Source of the DNA: Parabacteroides distasonis
GTDB lineage: Bacteria; Bacteroidota; Bacteroidia; Bacteroidales; Tannerellaceae
DNA: 64,000 nt
Direction of reading: 5' to 3'
NCBI RefSeq assembly: GCF_004793765.1
Contig: NZ_SRYM01000003.1
Span: forward strand, 1 to 64,000
The notes under the pieces are model-generated. The model worked only from the letters and a program-made list of their open reading frames with translations, was not told the DNA's origin and made no database searches. The position numbers were made by a program, and so were the translations under genes. The first letter of the stretch is position 1; each line of letters opens with the position of its first letter. Of this stretch, positions 10,817-51,183 are shown piece after piece.

Positions 10817-13800
10817 ATGAGCAATGTTGTATCATGGAAGCCTTTCCTTTTAGGAGCTTCTTTTCTTCTGTACGGAGCCGGAACGGCTTTAGCTACAGAA
10901 ACGGATCATTTGTATCCAACATCCAGCACAGGACTTATGAGCGTACAGCAAAATGGGCGGCAAGTAACCTGTACTATCGTAGATAAATCCGGTCCTATCC
11001 TTGGAGCTAACGTAGTCGTAAAAGGAACTACTATTGGAAACATCTCGGACATGGACGGTCGTGCCATAATCGACAATGTGCCCGCAAACGCAGTCTTAGT
11101 AGTATCTTATATTGGATACGTAACTCAAGAAGTGCATCTTAAAGGAAACCAAACCTCTATCAAAATTACGTTAGTGGAAGATTCTCAAGCCTTGGACGAG
11201 GTAGTCGTAACGGGTTATAGTACCCAAGCGAAGAAAGACATCACCGGATCCGTGGCTGTAGTCGCTACAGACGACTTGAAAGAGACGCCGGTATCCAACT
11301 TTGCCGAGGCTTTGCAAGGCAAGGCAGCCGGTGTATTCGTACAGGCTGGTGGCGGTCCGTTGGGTGAGACTACGATCCGTATCCGTGGCGTAGGATCCGT
11401 GAATGGTTCCGACCCATTAGTGATCGTGGACGGTGTATCTGGCGTAGATATCGATGCCGTAAACCCGAACGATATCGAATCCATGCAAATCTTAAAGGAT
11501 GCAGCTGCTTCCGCCATCTATGGTGCGAAAGGAGCGAATGGCGTTATCATCATCACGACTAAGCAAGGAAAGAAAAACGATAAGGTGAAAGTCTCTTATA
11601 ATGGTTACTTCGGCGTGGCGAAGATGGCGAACGACGGCTATGGTCTATTGAACGCTTGGGAAGCCATGGAGTTCCAAGAGGAAGGACAACGAAATGCGCT
11701 CAAATACCGAAATACACTTTACTCACATTCTCAGTTTGGTACAATTGGCGCTGACGGCTTAGGGCATCTAACAATGCCTTATGCCATTAAGCCAAATGGT
11801 TTGTCAAAAGAACAAGTCATCGAGCAATTCGGTTCGATCGACGCTTGGAAGGCATCTTATAAAGATAATGGAAAGAACACATGGTCTCGTTCCGCTTATT
11901 ATCAAATGTTAGAAGATGGATATTCGGAAGCGGAGGCTCGTAAAGGAACAGATTGGTACGATGAAGTTGTGCAGACTGGAAAAGTACAGGACCATCAAGT
12001 ATCTGTAACCGGTGGTGGAGAAAAAGCGACTTACGCCATGGGATTGGGTTATATGAACCGCGAGGGAACAATTAAAGAATCATGGTTCCGCCGTTATTCC
12101 TTACGTGTCAATACAAACTTCATGCCCAACAAATATTTCTCTATCGGGCAGAACACCAATATCGCAATCATTGAGAATTCCGGTGAACGTGGTCGCCAAG
12201 GTGATGATAACACGTTCGGCAAAACTTTCTCCATCCAACCTTGGGTACCTATCTATACGATTGGAGGAGACTATTCTGGCTCACAAAACTCTGAGGGAGG
12301 GCGTGCTAATACAGCTGTTCAGACCGTAGACAACGAAAAAGACAATCGTCGCCGTTTCTTACGTGCGCAATCCATGATCTATGGAGAGATCAAGCCGCTA
12401 GAAGACCTTGGAGAAGACTTGAAGATCCGTACGCAATTCAGTGCCACGTTAATGGGCAGTTGGGACTATTGGATGAACAAACGTACGATCATGACGAATA
12501 AGGAGGGGGCTTCTAATAACAGTTTCTACGAACGCGCTGACTATCGCCTAGGATACCAATGGACAAACACGATCACTTACAACAAGACGATCAACGAAGA
12601 TCACAAAATCGGAGTTGTACTAGGTAGCGAGGCTATTCGTGAAGGTCTAGGTCGCTGGATCCAGGCGAGCCGTATTGATTACGTATTCGAGGATAATCCA
12701 AACTTCTGGACAATAGCTAATGGCTCTACCAACAATAAGGATAATAATGGAAACAAAAACAATACGACTACGATGTTCGGTATCTTCGGTCGTGCTGATT
12801 ATGCTTATCAAGGTAAGTATTTGGCCACTGTTACCGTCCGTCGAGACGCATCTTCTCGCTTCTCCGAAAAAAATCGTTGGGGAACATTCCCTTCTATTTC
12901 TTTAGGCTGGCGTATGTCTGATGAGAAATTCATGGAGAAAACTCGTTCATGGTTAGACGACTTGAAGATTCGCGCAGGTTACGGTACGACAGGAAACTCA
13001 AATATCGATCCCTATAACTGGGCTTTCCAATATGGTACGGCAAACAAGTACTTATACAGCATAACAGGTTCTGATACAGACGTGGCTCAAGGATTCGGCG
13101 TGACCAACCTAGGAGATATCGAAGCAAAATGGGAAACTTCCAAGATGTTAAATACAGGATTTGATCTAACTACATTAGATCAACGCTTGAACATCAACTT
13201 CGACTGGTATCTGAAGAAGACTTCCGGTATGTTGATTGACGCAAACTGGTCTGCCTTAGCAGGTAATGCCAGCAAGCCCAAGATCAATATCGGAGATATG
13301 GAGAATAGAGGTATTGATTTGAACATGACTTGGAGGGATAAGGTAGGAGACTTCGACTATTCAATCGGTCTAAATCTTTCCCACTACAAAAACAAACTTA
13401 CCGAAATCGGTACAGACGCAGGTATTTTCACGGGTACACGTATATCAAACATGAACGTATTGATGAAAGGTCATGCGGTAGGTATGTTCCACGGTTATCA
13501 ATTAGACGGCATCTATAAGAGTGAGGACGAAGTCAGAAACTATAAGAACGACAATGGACAAACAGTATTACCTTTCACGGTAAGTGACCCTGAGAAATTG
13601 ATCGCTAGTGATTTCGTAGGAAAGTACAAGGTAAAAGATATAAACAACGATGGTAAGATCGATGCTGATGACCGTACATTCATCGGTAATCCGCATCCGG
13701 ATTTGACAGGAGGCTTGAACCTAAGTTTAGGCTGGAAAGGTTTCGACTTAAGTACTTATTTATACTTCTCCATCGGTAACGACATCTTTGCCATGTATAA

Positions 13801-14224
13801 ATATTATACCCATTATGGAGCATTACAATCCGCTTATTCAAAGGATCGCCGCGACAACTCTTGGCATCCGGAGACAAATCCGGACGGAATCTACCAGATG
13901 TGGGCTACCGTAGGAGGTGAAGGAGACTTAGCGGCTAACCAATCCAACTCGGGTTATATCGAAGATGGTTCGTTTTTGCGTATGCAAACTTTGACTTTAG
14001 GTTATACGCTTCCCAAGAAGATCCTCAACAAAATCAAGATGGAGAAGATCCGTGTTTATGGGCAAGTCGCAAACGTATTTACCATCACTGGATATTCAGG
14101 ACTGGATCCACAGGTACGCACGGATAACGGTTCCGGAGGTTCTAACGACCGAAATATGGGTACGGACTTTGGCTCATACGGTATGCCACGTCAATTCATC
14201 CTTGGTGTAAACGTGACATTCTAG
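10817..14224 (+). CDS. SusC-like TonB-dependent outer-membrane transporter, pair 1
   Basis: 1135 residues. Signal peptide (to about residue 27), carboxypeptidase-regulatory-like domain (about 50-120, with GANVVVKGTTIGNISDMDG), TonB box region (DEVVVTGY, near 130), plug domain with the SusC signature (IRGVGSVNGSDPLVIVDG), then a large barrel ending in an aromatic-flanked strand (ILGVNVTF). It imports an oligosaccharide or other nutrient across the outer membrane with the SusD-like lipoprotein 36 bp downstream. There is no N-terminal STN domain, so direct anti-sigma signalling is not expected. No glycoside hydrolase accompanies the pair, so the substrate is unknown. Confidence 0.95.
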   Translation: MSNVVSWKPFLLGASFLLYGAGTALATETDHLYPTSSTGLMSVQQNGRQVTCTIVDKSGPILGANVVVKGTTIGNISDMDGRAIIDNVPANAVLVVSYIGYVTQEVHLKGNQTSIKITLVEDSQALDEVVVTGYSTQAKKDITGSVAVVATDDLKETPVSNFAEALQGKAAGVFVQAGGGPLGETTIRIRGVGSVNGSDPLVIVDGVSGVDIDAVNPNDIESMQILKDAAASAIYGAKGANGVIIITTKQGKKNDKVKVSYNGYFGVAKMANDGYGLLNAWEAMEFQEEGQRNALKYRNTLYSHSQFGTIGADGLGHLTMPYAIKPNGLSKEQVIEQFGSIDAWKASYKDNGKNTWSRSAYYQMLEDGYSEAEARKGTDWYDEVVQTGKVQDHQVSVTGGGEKATYAMGLGYMNREGTIKESWFRRYSLRVNTNFMPNKYFSIGQNTNIAIIENSGERGRQGDDNTFGKTFSIQPWVPIYTIGGDYSGSQNSEGGRANTAVQTVDNEKDNRRRFLRAQSMIYGEIKPLEDLGEDLKIRTQFSATLMGSWDYWMNKRTIMTNKEGASNNSFYERADYRLGYQWTNTITYNKTINEDHKIGVVLGSEAIREGLGRWIQASRIDYVFEDNPNFWTIANGSTNNKDNNGNKNNTTTMFGIFGRADYAYQGKYLATVTVRRDASSRFSEKNRWGTFPSISLGWRMSDEKFMEKTRSWLDDLKIRAGYGTTGNSNIDPYNWAFQYGTANKYLYSITGSDTDVAQGFGVTNLGDIEAKWETSKMLNTGFDLTTLDQRLNINFDWYLKKTSGMLIDANWSALAGNASKPKINIGDMENRGIDLNMTWRDKVGDFDYSIGLNLSHYKNKLTEIGTDAGIFTGTRISNMNVLMKGHAVGMFHGYQLDGIYKSEDEVRNYKNDNGQTVLPFTVSDPEKLIASDFVGKYKVKDINNDGKIDADDRTFIGNPHPDLTGGLNLSLGWKGFDLSTYLYFSIGNDIFAMYKYYTHYGALQSAYSKDRRDNSWHPETNPDGIYQMWATVGGEGDLAANQSNSGYIEDGSFLRMQTLTLGYTLPKKILNKIKMEKIRVYGQVANVFTITGYSGLDPQVRTDNGSGGSNDRNMGTDFGSYGMPRQFILGVNVTF

Positions 14225-14260: not shown

Positions 14261-16123
14261 ATGAAGAAACTATTTATATATGCGGCGATCGTCGCTGCGG
14301 CAACGGGAGGCATGACATCTTGCTCTGACTTCCTAAATGTGGAACCGGCAGGAAAGGTGAGCGAACCTGACTTCTTGACACAATCCGGTGTTACCCAGCT
14401 AATGACGGGTATGTATGCCACACTGCATGATTACACTGGAGATGACTATTGGCAAAGTCTTAGTAACTATGTCTACGGTGATATTATGGGCGGAAGTGCC
14501 AATAAAGGATCCAACTTCACGGACCAACCGGATTTCACAAGTTTGGAGACTTACACGTTCACGACAGACAATAGTTATTTAAATAACAAATGGAGAAGCT
14601 GTTATAACGGTGTTTTTATGGCAAACAACGTGATAAATGTAGCAAATAAAGGCGAGGAAGCAAATTCTTTATCTACCATCGCTGGCGAAAGCAAGGACTT
14701 TTTGACCGAGACAATCGCCCAGGCTCGCTTCTTCCGTGCGTTTTGGCACTTTGAGGCAGTCAAGATCTTTGGAGCAGCTATTCCTTACGTTACAGACAAG
14801 GATTTGGCCGAAAGCGTAAACCCCCAAGTATCCAACGTAGACGAAAGTGGAAATTATATATATATTTGGGATAATATCGCAGAGGATTTCCAATATGCTT
14901 ATGAAAATCTACCCAACACATGGTCTACAGATAAAGGACGTGTAAACAAATGGGCTGCCGCCGCTTTCCTTGCGAAGTTGAGAATCTACCAATCTTCGCC
15001 CTACAACGGAACAAACGGAACAAGCAACCATTGGGTCGAAGCAAAAACCATCCTTGAAGATGTTATGACAAATGGCAAAGACAATAACGGTACGAAATAC
15101 CAGTTAGCGGAAAACTACGAGAAATTATATCTCGCCGGCGAGTCTGACTGGACTGGAGAATCCGTTTTTGACATCCAAATGGCTATTTCAGGTACACAAA
15201 CAAACACCAATGCGATTAACGGTGCTCCTCACGTAGGTTTCCAAGGAGCATTAGGTACAGGAGGTTGGGGATTCTATCAACCATCTTATGACATGGTCAA
15301 CTCTCATATCGTAAATGAGTCTGGTTTACCAGAAATGAATAACGCTTATCAAAATGTAGCACCTCTAACTACGATAGATAAAGCATCTGTACCTCACACA
15401 GATCTAACGGTATATACCGACCCTCGTTTGGACTTTACCGTAGGGCGTTTCAACGTGCCTTATTGGGATTGGTCTATTCCTACAACCATCTCTGGCTGGA
15501 TTCGTGAGCTTTCTAACGGTGGACCGTATTTGCACAAGAAAAATATTCCTCGGAAAGCAGACCAAGGAAGTCTATCCGTATCGACTGAAAGTGCGTCATC
15601 GGCCAAGAATTTCCACTTAATCCGTTATGCTGACGTATTATTATGGTATGCTGAAACATTGATAGAGACAGGTAAACCACAAGAGGCCGGTCAATATATC
15701 AATCAAATCCGTGAACGTGCGGCTAAAGCTTATGTTCACGCAGCGGATGAGACAACAATGGCTGAGGCTACATCTCCTTATATATTTGATAATAAGATCA
15801 GTGGAACACAAGGTGTGAACGCAGCGGCAAACTATCGTATCGGTCTATATCCGGCTTCACAGTTCGCTACCAAAGAATCGGCTACCAAAGCTTTACGTTG
15901 GGAACGTAAAATCGAAATGGCATTGGAAGGTCATCGTTGGTTTGATTTGGTACGTTGGAATATCGCCGCAGATGAGCTGAATAACTTTGTCTCTTATGAA
16001 TCTAAGTATTTGGGTAAGTACATAAATAAATATTATAACCCGAAATGGGCAACTTTACCCATTCCTCAAAAACAGATCCAGCTGATGAATGGTATTTTGG
16101 TTCAAAACGAAAACTGGAAATAA
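14261..16123 (+). CDS. SusD/RagB-like surface lipoprotein, pair 1
   Basis: 620 residues. Lipobox MTSCSDFLNVEP puts the lipidated Cys near residue 21. The helical RagB/SusD fold is recognisable from an N-terminal TPR-like half (FFRAFWHFEAVKIFG) and the C-terminal signature RWERKIEMALEGHRWFDLVRW. It binds the ligand at the cell surface and closes over the SusC barrel encoded just upstream. The reading frame is intact and longer than many SusD proteins. A strong terminator follows, so the pair forms a two-gene unit. Confidence 0.95.
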   Translation: MKKLFIYAAIVAAATGGMTSCSDFLNVEPAGKVSEPDFLTQSGVTQLMTGMYATLHDYTGDDYWQSLSNYVYGDIMGGSANKGSNFTDQPDFTSLETYTFTTDNSYLNNKWRSCYNGVFMANNVINVANKGEEANSLSTIAGESKDFLTETIAQARFFRAFWHFEAVKIFGAAIPYVTDKDLAESVNPQVSNVDESGNYIYIWDNIAEDFQYAYENLPNTWSTDKGRVNKWAAAAFLAKLRIYQSSPYNGTNGTSNHWVEAKTILEDVMTNGKDNNGTKYQLAENYEKLYLAGESDWTGESVFDIQMAISGTQTNTNAINGAPHVGFQGALGTGGWGFYQPSYDMVNSHIVNESGLPEMNNAYQNVAPLTTIDKASVPHTDLTVYTDPRLDFTVGRFNVPYWDWSIPTTISGWIRELSNGGPYLHKKNIPRKADQGSLSVSTESASSAKNFHLIRYADVLLWYAETLIETGKPQEAGQYINQIRERAAKAYVHAADETTMAEATSPYIFDNKISGTQGVNAAANYRIGLYPASQFATKESATKALRWERKIEMALEGHRWFDLVRWNIAADELNNFVSYESKYLGKYINKYYNPKWATLPIPQKQIQLMNGILVQNENWK

Positions 16124-16148
16124 TCAATTAGGTTAACTATTTTAAGCG

Positions 16149-16182
16149 GCCGGGCATGTTGATATGCCCGGCTTGCTTTTTT
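16149..16182 (+). terminator. Terminator after SusC/SusD pair 1
   Basis: A 9-bp GC-rich stem (GCCGGGCAT, 16149-16157, with 16164-16172) and a 6-base loop are followed by TTGCTTTTTT. Confidence 0.9.
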
Positions 16183-16236: not shown

Positions 16237-16328
16237 AACGCAGTACTACTGCCTAGGGCAAGTAATATATACTGCGTTAGCCAAGTCGGTATATATTACT
16301 TGCCCTAGGCAGTATCTTCCACAAAAAG
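16237..16328. repeat. Intergenic array of four 23-bp units containing a 26-bp perfect inverted repeat
   Basis: Units start at 16237, 16260, 16283 and 16306 and share columns (for example AAGT at the start of units 2 and 3, and a G/C-rich end). The core forms a perfect 26-bp inverted repeat (16247-16272 with 16289-16314) around a 16-base loop. There is no T-tract, so it is not a normal terminator. It is one of at least seven such arrays in the window. Confidence 0.6.
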
Positions 16329-16445: not shown

Positions 16446-18185
16446 ATGAGATATAAACAAACATTCTTCGGTTTGATCCTGTTTATCCTATTAGTTTTTT
16501 TCTTGCAAATAACCAGCAAGTTTCATTTCTTTTATATCGAGCAGCTTCAACTATTCCAATTTTCCGGAGACTATCTTGCGGATAAAATCAGTTATCCGGG
16601 AGGTTTATCTTCGGTCATCGGGGAATTTTTGACACAATTCTTTATCACCCCTTATCTCGGCCCCATTATCTTTGCCGCATTGCTTACCGGCATAGGGCTT
16701 ACCATGAGGACTGTCGTAAGACAAATCACCCCGGAAAAAGAATTGTATCTGATTTACTTACTCCCCGTCTTATCCTTATTATTGGCTCAATACGATTTCA
16801 ATTACTTACTACAAGGAACAGTGGCCTTTTTAATTTGCCTACTTTGTTTGAATGGGTGGATACGGATCAATAACTTTCGATTCCGATTATTTACGGCTCT
16901 ATTTATCACACCTCTACTTTTCTGGATAGGAGGGCCTATAGCCGGATTATTCACGGTCTGCGCATTCATCAAGGAATTATTCGGCCAATTCAAACAAGGA
17001 GTTATCTTCTTGGTGATCCCCATCGAGTTTACACTCATAGCGACCGGTAGCGTATGGGCGACAGTCGTCACCGATTATCATTTCGCATTCCTACCGGATG
17101 CCTATTATCATCCGATCTTACAAGCTCCGAATGTCATATATTTTTCCTGGGTCAGTTTGCCGCTTTCGCTGATCTTCGCATTCACATGGCCCAAAGGCAC
17201 TTCGAAAAAGAGAGATAGGATAGAGGTATCCGTACAACTTATCATAATTCTCGCACTTTGCAGGTTCGGGATACCAAGATATAATGATCAAAAATCTTAT
17301 CAACTAAAGGAACTAGATTATTATGCCCGAAACGGACAATGGAATCAAATCATCCGGAACTGCCAAGGTCCGATCAAGAATTACTTATACTTGACTTACC
17401 TAAACAACGCCCTTGCAGAGAAAGGCGAGTTAGGAAACCAAATGTTCGCATTCGATCAACACGGACCTCAAGGATTATTAGCCTCTTGGAATAAGACTTC
17501 TTCCGTATCGACCTTACTTAGCGACACCTATTTTACGCTTGGAGAAATCGCCTTATCGCAAGAGATGGCATTTGAAGGATATGTCACCGTGATCGGGGCC
17601 GGTAATCCCCGGAACCTACAACGCCTAGTCCAAACCAACTTGATTTACGGTACATATCCAATCGCAGAGAAGTACATCGATATATTAGAGAAAACTTACG
17701 CTTATCATGATTGGGCGAAACGACATAGGGAATTCCTATATAATGATAAAGCCATAGAAGAAGATCCGGTACTGGGGCTTAAACGAAAAGGACTTCCCCT
17801 TCGTAACAACCTTTCCGGTGTAAACGGGTTAGAACATGATTTATTGATCCGGGCAGAACAAAACCCGGAGAATCAGATTCCCATCCAATTTGCCGGAGCC
17901 ATCTACCTTTTATCCAAGGATATGAAATCTTTCCAGACATTCATTGAGAAATATTACGGAACATCTACACTTCCTTCCCTTCCGACGAGTTTCCAGGAAG
18001 CGGTTATTTTACTAGCCGAGAAAGACTCGGATTATTGGAGACGGTTCAACGTGTCCGAAAATGTCATCCGGAAATTCACAGGTTACAGGAATCTTGTATT
18101 GCAGAACCGGAATAACCCACAGCTACCCCAATTGATAAAAAACTCTTTTGGAGACACCTATTGGTCTTATTACCTTCTTAAATGA
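16446..18185 (+). CDS. Polytopic membrane protein with soluble helical C-half (DUF6057-like), copy 1
   Basis: 579 residues. The first 280 or so hold about eight to nine membrane segments (for example GLILFILLVFFLQI, IIFAALLTGIGL, LSLIFAFTW); the remainder is soluble and helical, TPR-like. A conserved stretch in the C-half, YAYHDWAKRHREFLYND, recurs in the second copy at 19701-21473. The family is of unknown function; I recall the label DUF6057 but could not check it. The CxxCH lipoprotein starts 9 bp downstream, so the two are co-translated and probably work together at the envelope. A -7 promoter box and a 23-bp repeat array separate it from the SusC/SusD unit. Confidence 0.7.
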   Translation: MRYKQTFFGLILFILLVFFLQITSKFHFFYIEQLQLFQFSGDYLADKISYPGGLSSVIGEFLTQFFITPYLGPIIFAALLTGIGLTMRTVVRQITPEKELYLIYLLPVLSLLLAQYDFNYLLQGTVAFLICLLCLNGWIRINNFRFRLFTALFITPLLFWIGGPIAGLFTVCAFIKELFGQFKQGVIFLVIPIEFTLIATGSVWATVVTDYHFAFLPDAYYHPILQAPNVIYFSWVSLPLSLIFAFTWPKGTSKKRDRIEVSVQLIIILALCRFGIPRYNDQKSYQLKELDYYARNGQWNQIIRNCQGPIKNYLYLTYLNNALAEKGELGNQMFAFDQHGPQGLLASWNKTSSVSTLLSDTYFTLGEIALSQEMAFEGYVTVIGAGNPRNLQRLVQTNLIYGTYPIAEKYIDILEKTYAYHDWAKRHREFLYNDKAIEEDPVLGLKRKGLPLRNNLSGVNGLEHDLLIRAEQNPENQIPIQFAGAIYLLSKDMKSFQTFIEKYYGTSTLPSLPTSFQEAVILLAEKDSDYWRRFNVSENVIRKFTGYRNLVLQNRNNPQLPQLIKNSFGDTYWSYYLLK

Positions 18186-18194
18186 TTCATTGCC

Positions 18195-19664
18195 ATGAAA
18201 AAGTACTATCTATATATTATATGTGTATGCTTTATCGTACTGGGGATATTTTCATGTTCAGACACGATTCCGGTAAGCAAGGAAACCTCAGAGAAACCGA
18301 TATTATACCCAGATTACGCAAATGTAACGATACCGAATAATATCGCTCCTCTGAATTTTAAGATACAGAATGCACATACGGAAGCGTTCGCTGTTTTCTG
18401 TTTTGAGGAAGTGAAGTTGCAGGTGAAAGAAAAAAAGGGGCAATTCCATATTCCTGCCGCCAACTGGAAAAAGCTACTTAAGAAAGCGACAGGCAAAACG
18501 ATACAAGTAAAACTTTATGCGAAGGATAAGGAATGGCTGAGCTATCCGGAATTCTCGTTGTTTATCGCACAGGAACCTATGGACTCCTATCTAGCCTACC
18601 GTCTGATAGAGCCCGGATATGAACTTTGGAACCAGATGGGTATTTACCAACGGAGCCTGGAAACCTACGAACAAAGTCCCATCATGGAAAATAAACACAG
18701 TGGACAAAATTGCATGAATTGCCATTCATTTTGTATGCAAAACCCCAACAAGCTGTTATTCCACATGAGAGATAAATACGCCGGGACTTACTTAATAGAC
18801 GGAGGTAAAATAGAGAAATTAAACACGAAAACGGAGCAAACGATTTCCCCCTTGGTGTATCCCTCTTGGCATCCTTCCGGGAAATACGTGGCATTCTCGG
18901 TAAACCAAACGAGCCAGAGCTTTCATTCCAATGACAAAAACAGGATCGAGGTTTTCGATAGCCAATCGGATGTAGTGGTATACGATACCGAGAAACATGA
19001 GATCATCAGTACTCCCGCCATTCGTACGAAAGAGGCTTTTGAGACATTCCCTACCTTTTCTCCCGACGGAAAAACGCTTTATTTCTGTACCGCCGAGGCA
19101 CGTTCGATGCCCCACGAGTATTCGGAGGTAAAGTATAATCTTTGCTCCATAGCGTTTGATCCGGTAACAAGGAGTTTCGGATCAAAGATAGACACATTAT
19201 ATAATGTACGAGAGAATGGAAAAAGTGTCTCTTTTCCCCGTGTCTCTCCCGACGGGAAATTCTTGTTATTCACCTTATCGGGCTACGGGAACTTCTCTAT
19301 CTGGCATAAAGACGCTGATTTATATCTTCTGGATATCGAGAGTGGTTTTTTCCATCCCTTACGAAACGCGAACAGCACAGACACGGAGAGTTATCATTCA
19401 TGGAGTAGCAACAGCCGATGGATCGTTTTCAGCAGCCGACGAATCGACGGATTATATACCCGACCTTATTTCGCCTATATCGACGAGAACGGAAATGCCT
19501 CCAAACCGTTCCTATTACCACAGGAAGATACGGATTTCTACCACCGGTTCATGAAATCATATAACATACCCGAATTTATCACGGGAAAAGTATCATCTAA
19601 CATACGGAAAATCAGCAAACTTGCCAAGGAAAGCAAGGGGGTTGACGTTACTTATCATAAATAG
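18195..19664 (+). CDS. Lipoprotein with one CxxCH motif and a TolB-like propeller, copy 1
   Basis: 489 residues. Lipobox GIFSCSD places the lipidated Cys at residue 21. An N-terminal domain (PDYANVTIPNNIAPLNF) precedes a single CMNCH motif at residues 173-177, the signature for covalent heme c attachment. The C-terminal half has PD40/TolB-like blades (FSPDGKTLYF, VSPDGKFLLF, WSSNSRWIVFSSRR). It is paired with the polytopic membrane protein 9 bp upstream. One heme on a surface or periplasmic propeller suggests electron transfer or a structural heme; the role is unknown. No cytochrome c maturation genes are in the window. Confidence 0.75.
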   Translation: MKKYYLYIICVCFIVLGIFSCSDTIPVSKETSEKPILYPDYANVTIPNNIAPLNFKIQNAHTEAFAVFCFEEVKLQVKEKKGQFHIPAANWKKLLKKATGKTIQVKLYAKDKEWLSYPEFSLFIAQEPMDSYLAYRLIEPGYELWNQMGIYQRSLETYEQSPIMENKHSGQNCMNCHSFCMQNPNKLLFHMRDKYAGTYLIDGGKIEKLNTKTEQTISPLVYPSWHPSGKYVAFSVNQTSQSFHSNDKNRIEVFDSQSDVVVYDTEKHEIISTPAIRTKEAFETFPTFSPDGKTLYFCTAEARSMPHEYSEVKYNLCSIAFDPVTRSFGSKIDTLYNVRENGKSVSFPRVSPDGKFLLFTLSGYGNFSIWHKDADLYLLDIESGFFHPLRNANSTDTESYHSWSSNSRWIVFSSRRIDGLYTRPYFAYIDENGNASKPFLLPQEDTDFYHRFMKSYNIPEFITGKVSSNIRKISKLAKESKGVDVTYHK

Positions 19665-19700
19665 ATCGAATCTGGGAAACATACATAAAGTAAAAAGAAC

Positions 19701-21473
19701 ATGAATAACTCAAGCAAAAAGATCATACCTATTCTTCTGCTCTTATTGTGCACCTGCCTTCTGGGGTTACATTTACAAGCCACTCAAGAAGCAACCTTCT
19801 TCTACCGGGAACAACAGCAGATCTTCCTGTTCGATAGTGAATATGTATTGAATATACTTAAGACAATTGGAGGATTGGCTACGATTTGTTCCCAATTTAT
19901 TATACAGTTCTTCAAGGTGCCGCTGATCGGATCGCTGGTGACTGCCTTGATCGGTGGAGTCTCTGGTTGGTTATTCTGGCTGACCTTACGAAAGATACAT
20001 CCGGCATTATATCTTATGCCCTTGGCCTTTCTCCCCATCCTATTCCAATATCTTTACCTAATGAAAGATAGCTATCATTATGAAGGACTGACAGCCATGT
20101 TGTTTTGGTCATTGGCGCTTAACGTATATAGTTACAGCGCACGAAGATTTAATTGGACGTACCGTACCTTAATTGGTTGCTTGCTGGCTATCGGATTGTT
20201 TTACACGATGGGATCTGTAGCTATATTATTCGTCCTTAGCAGCTTACTATTTGACGTATTACAAAAAAGCGAACGTTGGTACGCAAGCTTCATCCCGTTG
20301 CTGCTGCTACTTATCGTAGGCTCCCTATGTGTCTTAGGAGGCAGTAAACCCGATTATGACTATGTATTTTGGATGAAAGATTACGTAGAATATTTCATTG
20401 AGCTGGAACCATTCTACGGCTTCTCTTGGCAAGTAGCGCTACTCGTTATGTTTCTATTCTTCCTATCACGTTATTTAGATCACATAAAAACCTATTTAAA
20501 AGCTTTAGTAGCCGTAGCACTACTTGCCTTATCCGGTATGTATTATACGCAAACGGCTCTTCAACAGAGGAATAAAGATTTCTATACGTTGATGCAAATG
20601 TTTCATTACATAGATACCGAGCAATGGGACGCCATAATCTCATCCGCCGATCTGAACTATAATAACTACTTACACCTGAATTGCCTAAACCTTGCCTTAT
20701 CGCATAAAGGGGTGATACAGACTGATTTATTCAAATACCCGCAAAGCGGAATACAATCTTTGGTCTCAAAGTATCAAGCGCATATAGAAGAAAGTTTCCT
20801 ATTCAGCCAGATATACTACCATGTAGGAATCACGTCTTTGGCATACAATTTCGCTTTTGGTACCTCGGTGGGAATTACACACGGCAGTCCCGTCATGACC
20901 AAATTATTAATAAAATCCCATTTGATATACGGACAGTATCCCGCAGCCGAGAAGTTTATATCCCTATTGGAAAAGACATGGGCCTATCATGAATGGGCCT
21001 CCTCGCAACGAAAGTTCTTATATAATGACCTAGCGGTGGAGAACGACCCGGAATTAGGGACAAAAAGAAAAAGTCTATCCAGCGACAAAGACCTTTTCGC
21101 CAATATAATCGGATTGTTTGATAACTTGATGATTATATTGGAAGAGAATCCCCAGAATAAAGCCGCGTTGGATTATACGATCGGCATATTATTATTATCG
21201 AAAGACCTGCCCGCTATAAAAATGTTTGTTGAAAGATTCAGTGGAACGGAAGTACTCCCTACATTGCCCGAGCCTTTGCAACAGGCCGTGATCTCTTATG
21301 CGGAGCATGATCCGGATTATTGCCGCAAGTATGGGGTAACCGATAAAGTCCTGTCCGAGTTCTCGCTATTCAAGCAACGTGTATTGGGGCTAAGGCATGC
21401 CCGACAAGATATAGCGGCTGGAATAGCCGACTATCGACCTACTTTTTGGTACTATTTGATACTCTCAAAATAA
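19701..21473 (+). CDS. Polytopic membrane protein with soluble helical C-half (DUF6057-like), copy 2
   Basis: 590 residues, paralogue of the protein at 16446-18185. Several membrane segments fill about the first 285 residues, followed by a helical soluble region with AYHEWASSQRKFLYNDLA, the counterpart of the conserved stretch in copy 1. The C-half is better conserved than the membrane part. It starts 36 bp after the first CxxCH lipoprotein and is followed after 8 bp by the second, so all four genes may be one transcript. Function unknown; the repeated gene order implies that each membrane protein has its own lipoprotein partner. Confidence 0.7.
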   Translation: MNNSSKKIIPILLLLLCTCLLGLHLQATQEATFFYREQQQIFLFDSEYVLNILKTIGGLATICSQFIIQFFKVPLIGSLVTALIGGVSGWLFWLTLRKIHPALYLMPLAFLPILFQYLYLMKDSYHYEGLTAMLFWSLALNVYSYSARRFNWTYRTLIGCLLAIGLFYTMGSVAILFVLSSLLFDVLQKSERWYASFIPLLLLLIVGSLCVLGGSKPDYDYVFWMKDYVEYFIELEPFYGFSWQVALLVMFLFFLSRYLDHIKTYLKALVAVALLALSGMYYTQTALQQRNKDFYTLMQMFHYIDTEQWDAIISSADLNYNNYLHLNCLNLALSHKGVIQTDLFKYPQSGIQSLVSKYQAHIEESFLFSQIYYHVGITSLAYNFAFGTSVGITHGSPVMTKLLIKSHLIYGQYPAAEKFISLLEKTWAYHEWASSQRKFLYNDLAVENDPELGTKRKSLSSDKDLFANIIGLFDNLMIILEENPQNKAALDYTIGILLLSKDLPAIKMFVERFSGTEVLPTLPEPLQQAVISYAEHDPDYCRKYGVTDKVLSEFSLFKQRVLGLRHARQDIAAGIADYRPTFWYYLILSK

Positions 21474-21481
21474 AAACACAT

Positions 21482-22960
21482 ATGGAAAAACAGACTTACA
21501 CGAATACAAACCGATATTTTTTCCTTTTTCTCATCGCCTTGATGGTTTCATGCTCCAAAAGTGACATACAGATCACCAAGAGCTTAAATGAGGAAATAAC
21601 CATTTATCCGGATTACAAGGATGTAACCATTCCTGTAAACATCGCCCCACTCAATTTCTCTATCGCCGATAGCAGTGAGCACTGTCTCATCATTAAAGGG
21701 GAAAAGACCCAATTCCAAGTTTATAGTGATGAGGGGCTCTTTGAGATCCCACAAAAGAGATGGAAAGCCTTATTGAAAGAGAATGCCGGAAAGCAAATAA
21801 AACTGACCATCGCTAAACGCATACAGGGCCAATGGAATGCCTATATACCTTTTCATATGGACATCGTAAATGATTCCATTGATAAATATATAGCCTATCG
21901 CTTATTAGCCTTGAGCAATGATATGTGGAACAGGATGGGCATCTATCAACGAAACTTGGAGAATTATGACCAAAGCGTGATTTACGAGAACAGCTTAACC
22001 GACTATAATTGTGTAAACTGCCACACGTTTTCCTCCGGGAACCCGGACAAAATGATTTTCCATATGCGAGGCAAACACGCCGGTTCCGTACTGATTGATG
22101 GAAAGAAAATAACCAAGATAAATACCAAGACACCCGAGACTGTCTCAAACTTTGTATACATGTATTGGCATCCGAATGGTAACTATCTGGCGGCCACCGT
22201 ATGCGATACCTACCAAAACTTCTTCATCAATAATCCCAATACGCTGGAAGTGTTGGATCATAACTCCGATATCGTGATCTACGACGTGAAGAAGAACGAG
22301 ATATTCTCTTGCGAAGCGTTAAATTCCAAAGACGCGTGGCAAATATTCCCCGCATTCTCTCCCGACGGAAAGAGCCTCTATTTCAGCTCGACCGCCGCCG
22401 TAGATTCTATTTCCAAGAACTTCAGACAAATGACCTATAGCCTATGTCGTGTAGACTTTGACCCGGAAACCCGTACTCTAGGCCAGCAAGTAGATACTTT
22501 ATATAATGGCCGGACCAACCACAAAAGCGTATCCTTTCCTCGGATCTCACCCGATGGTAAATATCTGGCTTTCACCTTACAGGAATATGGCGGCTTCGGT
22601 GTTTGGCATAAAGATGCCGAACTATATATGATCCGGCTATCCGACGGAAAGACGTACCCGCTGACCGAGGCGAACAGCCCCGAAGGAGAAAGCTATCATT
22701 CATGGAGCCGCAACAACCGTTGGATGGTATTCAGCAGCCGCAGATTGGATGGATTATACACGCGTCCGTTCTTCACCTATATCGATGATAGCGGTACGGC
22801 CCATAAACCATTCCTCCTGCCGCAAAGAAATCCCGTAAAATATTATAAAGACCTGTTGTGGACTTACAATCTCCCGGAGTTTATACAAGAAAAGGTCCAA
22901 ATAGACACGCATGCCGTGATGGAAACAATGAGAAATACAAAAGGAATCCATGTAAAATAA
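21482..22960 (+). CDS. Lipoprotein with one CxxCH motif and a TolB-like propeller, copy 2
   Basis: 492 residues, paralogue of the product of 18195-19664. Lipobox LMVSCSKS; heme-type CVNCH at residues 177-181; then TolB-like blades (FSPDGKSLYF, ISPDGKYLAF, WSRNNRWMVFSSRR). The open frame could begin at 21446 inside the previous gene, but that adds a non-signal leader; the ATG at 21482 gives a normal lipoprotein signal and leaves an 8-bp gap. Conservation of CxxCH and its surroundings in both copies argues that the motif is functional. See copy 1 for role. Confidence 0.75.
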   Translation: MEKQTYTNTNRYFFLFLIALMVSCSKSDIQITKSLNEEITIYPDYKDVTIPVNIAPLNFSIADSSEHCLIIKGEKTQFQVYSDEGLFEIPQKRWKALLKENAGKQIKLTIAKRIQGQWNAYIPFHMDIVNDSIDKYIAYRLLALSNDMWNRMGIYQRNLENYDQSVIYENSLTDYNCVNCHTFSSGNPDKMIFHMRGKHAGSVLIDGKKITKINTKTPETVSNFVYMYWHPNGNYLAATVCDTYQNFFINNPNTLEVLDHNSDIVIYDVKKNEIFSCEALNSKDAWQIFPAFSPDGKSLYFSSTAAVDSISKNFRQMTYSLCRVDFDPETRTLGQQVDTLYNGRTNHKSVSFPRISPDGKYLAFTLQEYGGFGVWHKDAELYMIRLSDGKTYPLTEANSPEGESYHSWSRNNRWMVFSSRRLDGLYTRPFFTYIDDSGTAHKPFLLPQRNPVKYYKDLLWTYNLPEFIQEKVQIDTHAVMETMRNTKGIHVK

Positions 22961-50234: not shown

Positions 50235-50306
50235 GGCCCATTCGTCTATCGGCTAGGACGCAAGATTTTCATTCTTGAAAGAGGGGTTCGATTCCCCTAT
50301 GGGCTA
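50235..50306 (+). tRNA. tRNA-Glu (anticodon TTC), copy 1
   Basis: 72-base cloverleaf: acceptor GGCCCAT with ATGGGCT, anticodon loop TTTTCAT, T arm GGGG-TTCGATT-CCCC, discriminator A. Nearest to the only promoter. Confidence 0.95.
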
Positions 50307-50347
50307 CAATAAACAGGATTAAAAAACAATAAAGAGAAGATCTAGAA

Positions 50348-50602
50348 ATGGCAAATCATAAGTCATCAATCAAGAGAATCAGACAGACAAACGCAAGACG
50401 TTTGCGTAACAGATATTACGCAAAGACAGCTAGAAACGCTATGAAAGTTTTGCGCGCTACTGAAGACAAGAATGAAGCACAAGCTTTATTCCCTAAGGTA
50501 TGCTCTATGTTGGATAAGCTTGCAAAAAAGAACGTTATCCACAAGAACAAGGCCGGCAATCTGAAATCCAAGTTGGCTAAGCACGTTAATGCGTTAGCAT
50601 AA
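50348..50602 (+). CDS. rpsT: 30S ribosomal protein S20, copy 1
   Basis: 84 residues, Lys/Arg-rich, full length. [13 protein letters not shown] is the S20 N terminus, and the helical body follows. It binds 16S rRNA during small-subunit assembly. It is transcribed behind tRNA-Glu copy 1 and closed by a terminator. Its protein is identical to that of copy 2. Confidence 0.97.
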
Positions 50603-50630
50603 GCAGAAGGTAATTACTTTTACAAGTATA

Positions 50631-50660
50631 AAGCCGGACTCTCAGCAAGCCCGGCTTTTT
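50631..50660 (+). terminator. Terminator after rpsT copy 1
   Basis: Stem AAGCCGG/CCGGCTT (50631-50637 with 50651-50657) followed by TTT. Confidence 0.8.
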
Positions 50661-50669
50661 AGGCCTAAT

Positions 50670-50741
50670 GGCCCATTCGTCTATCGGCTAGGACGCAAGA
50701 TTTTCATTCTTGAAAGAGGGGTTCGATTCCCCTATGGGCTA
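50670..50741 (+). tRNA. tRNA-Glu (anticodon TTC), copy 2
   Basis: Identical to copy 1, 435 bp downstream. It follows a terminator and has no promoter of its own that I can see. Confidence 0.95.
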
Positions 50742-50782
50742 CAATAAACAGGATTAAAAAACAATAAAGAGAAGATCTAGAA

Positions 50783-51037
50783 ATGGCAAATCATAAGTCA
50801 TCAATCAAGAGAATCAGACAGACAAACGCAAGACGTTTGCGTAACAGATATTACGCAAAGACAGCTAGAAACGCTATGAAAGTTTTGCGCGCTACTGAAG
50901 ACAAGAATGAAGCACAAGCTTTATTCCCTAAGGTATGCTCTATGTTGGATAAGCTTGCAAAAAAGAACGTTATCCACAAGAACAAGGCCGGCAATCTGAA
51001 ATCCAAGTTGGCTAAGCACGTTAATGCGTTAGCATAA
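50783..51037 (+). CDS. rpsT: 30S ribosomal protein S20, copy 2
   Basis: 84 residues, same as copy 1 in protein and, as far as I compared, in DNA. Expression would depend on read-through of the terminator at 50631-50660. Confidence 0.95.
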
Positions 51038-51065
51038 GCAGAAGGTAATTACTTTTACAAGTATA

Positions 51066-51095
51066 AAGCCGGACTCTCAGCAAGCCCGGCTTTTT
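51066..51095 (+). terminator. Terminator after rpsT copy 2
   Basis: Same hairpin as at 50631-50660, 435 bp on. Confidence 0.8.
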
Positions 51096-51104
51096 AGGCC
51101 TAAT

Positions 51105-51176
51105 GGCCCATTCGTCTATCGGCTAGGACGCAAGATTTTCATTCTTGAAAGAGGGGTTCGATTCCCCTATGGGCTA
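51105..51176 (+). tRNA. tRNA-Glu (anticodon TTC), copy 3
   Basis: Identical tRNA sequence. It ends the duplicated block; the base after 51177 differs from copies 1 and 2. Confidence 0.95.
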
Positions 51177-51183
51177 CCAACCT

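Follow-up and report, generated by a model that had tools for sequence, protein, structure and literature searches.

A co-inherited envelope module of DUF6057 proteins and CxNCH propeller lipoproteins in Bacteroidales

The sequence analysed computationally in this study, referred to as the window, comprises 64,000 nucleotides of Parabacteroides distasonis (assembly GCF_004793765.1, contig NZ_SRYM01000003.1, positions 1-64,000 of the forward strand). Two gene pairs lie side by side in this window at positions 16446..22960, each consisting of a gene for a membrane protein of the family DUF6057 (PF19529) followed by a gene for a PD40 lipoprotein with one CxNCH motif. The pair is a real, conserved and co-inherited two-protein envelope module in which the CxxCH occupies an unusual position. 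The explanation that we prefer, with a probability of about 0.5, is a dedicated periplasmic complex of DUF6057 and lipoprotein, probably carrying a heme attached by a CcsA-family synthase, which has been recruited by some glycan-use loci.

The first-pass annotation of this region had described the pair as present twice in tandem and in the same order, with gaps of 9 bp (pair 1) and 8 bp (pair 2) between the paired genes, and all four open reading frames (ORFs) were found in that arrangement. The single CxxCH reported at the same place in both lipoproteins was likewise recovered, as CMNCH in the first and CVNCH in the second, at equivalent positions. Identity between the two lipoproteins was 49% (233 of 477 aligned positions), and that between the two DUF6057 proteins 31% (179 of 571). 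The first-pass annotation could not name the system. The membrane proteins do have a family name, both being full-length matches to DUF6057 above the gathering score, but no paper with the name DUF6057 or PF19529 was found in open-licence PubMed Central. In the same collection no relevant title on the DUF6057-lipoprotein pair or on heme propellers was found among those listed. As Pfam also assigns no function to DUF6057, its fixed partner and its membrane-less form, presented below, appear to be undescribed so far. The family thereby gains a fixed partner and a probable membrane side.

The pairing of DUF6057 with the CxNCH lipoprotein is well supported. Relatives were fetched with their loci as the best 80 matches of a pattern search (more than 80 exist), and all 80 record titles name Bacteroidota. 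A DUF6057 match was present in 76 of these 80 loci. Two of the four loci without a match (L026 and L058) have available sequence that starts at the lipoprotein; in the third (L059) a SusD-cluster gene lies approximately 118 bp upstream of the lipoprotein, and in the fourth (L045) a GH123 glycosidase gene ends 1 bp before it. A GH123 gene also takes the place of DUF6057 in L056, 3 bp before the lipoprotein, with a shortened DUF6057 on the opposite strand.

Co-occurrence was then quantified in 198 genomes of the same order that were not selected by the motif, with cut-offs of E 1e-30 and 1e-8. Both families were present in 20 genomes, the lipoprotein only in one (G278, 82% complete), DUF6057 only in one (G158, 61% complete) and neither in 176 (Fisher p 3e-25). 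For 40 of the 47 lipoprotein hits a DUF6057 match was located on the same strand within 600 bp, DUF6057 being the first gene in 36 cases and the second in 4. The remaining seven hits, some of which are fragments, had no such match, and three genomes (G202, G177 and G255) each harboured one unlinked lipoprotein and one unlinked DUF6057. The proposal of a dedicated two-protein module, which was to be abandoned if the two genes did not co-occur elsewhere, has therefore withstood the profile search. Among 148 genomes sampled across the phylum, strong matches of both families were found in the same three (P. distasonis itself, G039 and G078), adjacent to each other; a lipoprotein-profile match was present in 53, being weak and confined to the propeller in 50 of them, and a DUF6057 match in 10, of which 7 were below the DUF6057 cut-off.

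The P. distasonis genome itself encodes five lipoproteins with a strong match, plus a sixth weak match covering the propeller only, and six DUF6057 genes were detected in it by homology search. A DUF6057 gene adjoins every one of the five lipoprotein genes: two of these pairs are in the window, and C155, C22 and C113 have one each. On C113 (L016:8257-10102) the DUF6057 gene is split into two reading frames, while the adjoining lipoprotein gene is open and its product lacks the lipobox cysteine. The sixth DUF6057 gene, on C158 (L018:8191-9924), is solitary, has no lipoprotein neighbour and is divergent, with 21% identity to protein 1 of the window. Side-by-side modules are a recurrent arrangement, since tandem arrays of two or three pairs occur in other genomes (L080, L081, L084, L086, L090, L093 and L098).

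Mirror trees of the two families were built with FastTree for 74 of the 86 DUF6057-first pairs in 84 loci, the remainder being too short. The correlation between the trees (r 0.889; permutation maximum 0.219, n=500) partly reflects shared species history. The nearest neighbour was identical in both trees for 59 of the 74 pairs. Paralogues of one genome do not exchange partners: of 13 tandem-array members, 11 had the same nearest neighbour in both trees, the exceptions being L081_p2 and L090_p3, and in L080, L084 and L090 the first pairs stay with first pairs and the second with second. A quick tree that covered 39 of these 74 lipoproteins placed window pair 1 among copies from Parabacteroides and pair 2 among copies from Bacteroidaceae and Prevotellaceae, in starred clades. 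As the pairs fall in different supported clades, a recent tandem duplication was rejected, and what had been called a duplicated module is better described as two paralogous modules side by side.

Conservation of the motif was assessed in a set of 96 rows, to which the P. distasonis genome contributed 5 copies and the pattern-fetched loci 91 ORFs. The fetch pattern held part of the motif, yet 8 of the 96 rows carry Ile or Leu where it allowed only Met or Val. CxNCH occurred once per row in all 96. Profile searches supplied a second set of 36 unique ORFs, which again includes two of the own-genome copies. Two of the 36 are fragments that do not extend to the motif, and each of the other 34 has a single CxNCH. 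The concern that the CxxCH might not be conserved among homologues is thus answered by both sets. A Cys was present at the lipobox position in 92 of the 96 lipoproteins, and one feature expected of c-type cytochromes, a CxxCH in an exported protein, is therefore found here. As a possible surface-export signal, Asp or Glu at +2 to +6 gave a mean of 0.58 in the 57 of 96 lipoproteins with a lipobox regex match; as at least 2 of 12 listed matches are misplaced, surface exposure is not claimed. In an 89-row alignment C173, N175, C176, H177, H190 and R192 (numbering of lipoprotein 1) were invariant, against a mean column identity of 51%. His190, which lies 13 residues past the His of the CxxCH, was retained in 32 of the 34 profile-found ORFs, with a Gln in one (L174) and the last (L148) cut short.

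The AlphaFold2 model of lipoprotein 1 (predicted local distance difference test score of 95) has a TolB-like fold, predicted to be a six-bladed propeller with the motif in blade 1. CxNCH lies on strand 173-179 of this model, read as the innermost strand of blade 1 from the strand order, and His190 lies on the next strand (186-192). The first-pass annotation had put the CxxCH ahead of the propeller, after an N-terminal domain; in the predicted structure it belongs to the propeller itself. Assignment to blade 1 comes from this model together with a by-eye alignment of the inner strands, in which the CH dyad aligns with the Tyr/Phe-Pro of blades 2-4 and the Tyr-His of blade 5. When sequence profiles were used to test whether the CxxCH segment derives from blade 1, the signal did not exceed that of shuffles. 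A CxxCH borne on a strand is unusual.

Hydropathy of a 72-row DUF6057 alignment indicated eight helices up to residue 280, followed by a soluble half. Three natural forms of the protein (L079, L088 and L098, with match ranges 286-567, 301-567 and 282-567) are devoid of the membrane half, start with a lipoprotein-type signal as judged by eye, and are located beside a CxNCH lipoprotein. This type of signal on the membrane-less forms suggests that the soluble half is periplasmic, and we infer that the membrane half, where present, anchors it from the inner membrane. A membrane half resembling GT-C glycosyltransferases was suggested by the length of the first loop and by a low-scoring STT3 match (17.8 bits vs a cut-off of 450); it had no other support and was dropped.

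A statistical link to glycan-import loci was observed. Among arrays with enough upstream sequence, SusD was found within three same-strand genes upstream in 13 of 60 DUF6057 arrays, compared with 6 of 343 other genes of the same loci (p 7e-8, from related genomes that are not independent). The 4.2 Mb P. distasonis genome has 21 SusD matches. In the window SusC and SusD are in the same cluster as the pairs, with the end of SusD 322 bp upstream of pair 1. Glycosidases adjoining the lipoprotein were confirmed by Pfam as GH123 (L045 and L056) and GH127 (L053), the other enzyme labels of neighbouring genes having been assigned by eye. The pair may thus be regarded as an apparently undescribed Bacteroidales envelope module, sometimes present several times per genome and over-represented beside glycan-import genes. 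To our knowledge, redox proteins are not usual in that position.

On balance a heme on the lipoprotein is somewhat more likely than not. In its favour, the CxxCH is invariant and the protein is exported. A match to PF01578, the CcsA family of cytochrome c synthases, is present in the P. distasonis genome at C122 (E=4.5e-36), and the genome therefore has the maturation machinery that a c-type cytochrome needs. In a published CcsBA reconstitution, heme was attached to CXXCH peptides of 9 to 20 residues, and both thiols and the His of the short peptide were required, with nothing more (PMC8112865). In the explanation that we prefer, DUF6057 and the CxNCH lipoprotein would form one dedicated, periplasm-facing complex. 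The lipoprotein would be exported unfolded, lipidated, and probably provided with one covalent heme at CxNCH by a CcsA-type synthase; it would then fold into the six-bladed propeller, where the motif would occupy the innermost blade-1 strand, next to His190 as candidate second heme ligand. DUF6057 would grip the lipoprotein through its periplasmic soluble half, usually fixed by the N-terminal helix bundle in the inner membrane. The copies would have specialised partner by partner, some being recruited to SusCD or glycosidase loci, where the heme propeller would most likely bind a substrate or a partner protein, with one-electron chemistry or redox-dependent binding. If the heme is real, this would be a new structural setting for covalent heme. 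More tentatively, the whole might be a new fold context for heme c, with the CxxCH on an innermost blade strand, bis-His ligation by His177 and His190 from the two strands of one hairpin, DUF6057 as a new family of periplasmic partners holding the propeller, and a role as redox accessory in Bacteroidales glycan-use loci.

Besides the share of species history in the tree correlation, several points weigh against this explanation. SusD does not precede 47 of the 60 arrays. In the window a terminator-like hairpin separates SusD from pair 1, so that joint transcription of SusCD and the pairs is not assured and they may be separate transcripts, in a pattern scan that gave 6 such sites overall vs 5.9 in shuffles. 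CcsA was found in 148 of 148 sampled genomes; its presence alone says little, and it was dropped as a discriminator. The predicted model shows no helical cytochrome c fold at the motif, residues 98 to 337 containing no helix as long as 4 residues, and by strand alternation Cys173 and Cys176 should face opposite sides, a poor geometry for two thioethers to one heme. The eight helices of DUF6057 (an uncertain count) are an even number, which argues against a periplasmic soluble half if the N-terminus is cytoplasmic, as both would then be on the cytoplasmic side.

A non-heme site is a real rival to the heme, if on the whole an unlikely one. Cys173, His177 and His190, with Asn175 and Arg192, would serve as a metal-binding or thiol site, and the CxxCH would be fortuitous. 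A short turn connects strands 173-179 and 186-192, which match in length; read as an antiparallel hairpin, they would turn C173, N175, H177, H190 and R192 to the same face, with C176 on the reverse side (faces assigned from DSSP of the predicted model). Replacement of the Tyr/Phe-Pro and Tyr-His of other blades by the CH dyad would also set the motif in an ordinary propeller architecture. However, such a site has no need of Cys176, which is as invariant as the others (89/89; 96/96), and where the cell has CcsA, heme would be expected to be attached to an exported CxxCH. The invariance of all six residues, so far above the column mean, makes it improbable that the lipoprotein is a structural TolB-like scaffold without cofactor, in which the conserved Cys and His would be packing residues.

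Other alternatives concern DUF6057. Quite unlikely in our view, and compatible with heme, is a role as dedicated assembly factor, with a membrane-tethered TPR-like domain holding the apoprotein for heme attachment in a way that we take to be comparable to CcmI/NrfG. Such a role is consistent with the partner fidelity in the trees, with the soluble half also occurring without the membrane half, with sub-threshold TPR matches (TPR_12 E=0.034, TPR_19 E=0.066) in two of the eight soluble halves searched and with a weak match to one solved structure (E=0.12), presumably a TPR protein. The TPR matches are all below the cut-off and in few members, though, self-comparison of DUF6057 found no internal repeats, and a chaperone need not stay polytopic in most copies. 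A polytopic partner, and the sigma/FecR-like genes (named by eye) near some modules, would agree with a heme-based or redox sensor, the propeller reading a gas, redox state or ligand and signalling through the membrane half; this is improbable in the face of membrane-less variants and of the lack of a signalling domain by Pfam in DUF6057 or the lipoprotein. Electron transfer via the multi-helix partner, among the functions first suggested, fared worst. With about eight membrane helices DUF6057 could in principle supply the lipoprotein with electrons, by quinol oxidation or as a heme-b carrier, but in the 72-row alignment no Cys column exceeds 40% and a single His column exceeds 50% (56%), and forms without a membrane half still pair. 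An electron conduit via b-hemes was disfavoured on these columns, and the carrier role is very improbable.

The features of the window are listed in Table 1. The start of lipoprotein 2 was taken as the ATG at 21482; the mechanical ORF list begins at the TTG at 21446.

Table 1. Features of the DUF6057-lipoprotein region and its upstream context in the window
Feature	Position	Strand	Evidence or remarks
DUF6057 protein 1, 579 aa	16446..18185	+	PF19529 E=1.8e-175, 585 bits vs cut-off 29.8
DUF6057 protein 1, layout			hydropathy of 72-row alignment: hydropathic N-terminal half with ~8 predicted helices, then soluble half of ~300 aa
CxNCH propeller lipoprotein 1, 489 aa	18195..19664	+	signal/lipobox Cys21, N-terminal beta domain, propeller, C173-M-N-C176-H177, His190, Arg192
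CMNCH codons of lipoprotein 1, residues 173-177	18711..18725	+	sequence; strand 173-179 by DSSP of model
DUF6057 protein 2, 590 aa	19701..21473	+	PF19529 E=1.3e-147, 494 bits vs 29.8; clade and nearest neighbours differ from those of protein 1
CxNCH propeller lipoprotein 2, 492 aa, motif CVNCH	21482..22960	+	PD40 E=2.2e-17
SusC-type TonB-dependent transporter, upstream context	10817..14224	+	TIGR04056 842 bits vs cut-off 368
SusD-type lipoprotein, upstream context	14261..16123	+	PF07980 E=1.7e-38
Terminator-like hairpin and T-run, between SusD and pair 1	16148..16173	+	pattern scan; 11 pairs, 7 GC

A perfect inverted repeat with 26-nt arms and a 16-nt spacer was observed upstream of pair 1 (16247-16314), with one other weak match in the genome (3 mismatches, C66). 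It was rejected as a shared regulatory element, since of the 83 upstream regions compared the remaining 82 did not show it; other repeats upstream of DUF6057 were present in L081 (22 nt) and L036 (18 nt). In eight loci (L026, L030, L080, L081, L082, L084, L086 and L093) the lipoprotein gene is immediately followed, in the same orientation, by one gene with chorismatase (FkbO/Hyg5-like) and RidA-like domains, identified by Pfam in the L081 copy and by similarity in the rest. A DUF4369 protein is encoded directly upstream of DUF6057, behind a SusD-cluster gene, in L080 (2443-3036, by Pfam), with look-alikes in L084 and L090. Exporters of the C39-peptidase ABC type are close to two of the P. distasonis pairs (L015:3668-7188 and L016:13766-15973), and in L015 an HlyD-type gene is immediately upstream of the pair. 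Elsewhere in the window (50235-51179) three tRNA-Glu(ttc) genes have starts spaced exactly 435 bases apart.

The module was compared with known systems that share parts of its architecture. The lipoproteins scored 45.6 and 39.2 bits against the TolB (Tol-Pal) equivalog model TIGR02800, far from its cut-off of 343, and differ from TolB and from PD40 propellers in their lipobox, in the CxNCH on blade 1 and in their partner. PorE of the type IX secretion system combines TPR and PD40 propeller parts in one protein, and its model NF052230 gave 18.9 and 19.2 bits vs a cut-off of 600. CcmI and NrfG are TPR partners of apocytochromes at the membrane, whereas DUF6057 has no TPR match above cut-off. The propeller of hydrazine synthase alpha (5c2v_A) is similar to that of the lipoprotein, with 12% identity. 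In that enzyme the CxxCH motifs are found past the propeller, in domains of their own, and His587 belongs to the CxxCH of heme alpha-I (PMC12758564, PMC12607021). Lipoprotein 1 differs from this layout of heme domains after a six-bladed propeller, as its single CxxCH is at 173-177, within blade 1, and one short helix (470-479) follows the last propeller strand in the predicted model. The fold that the two proteins have in common is no indication of a common function.

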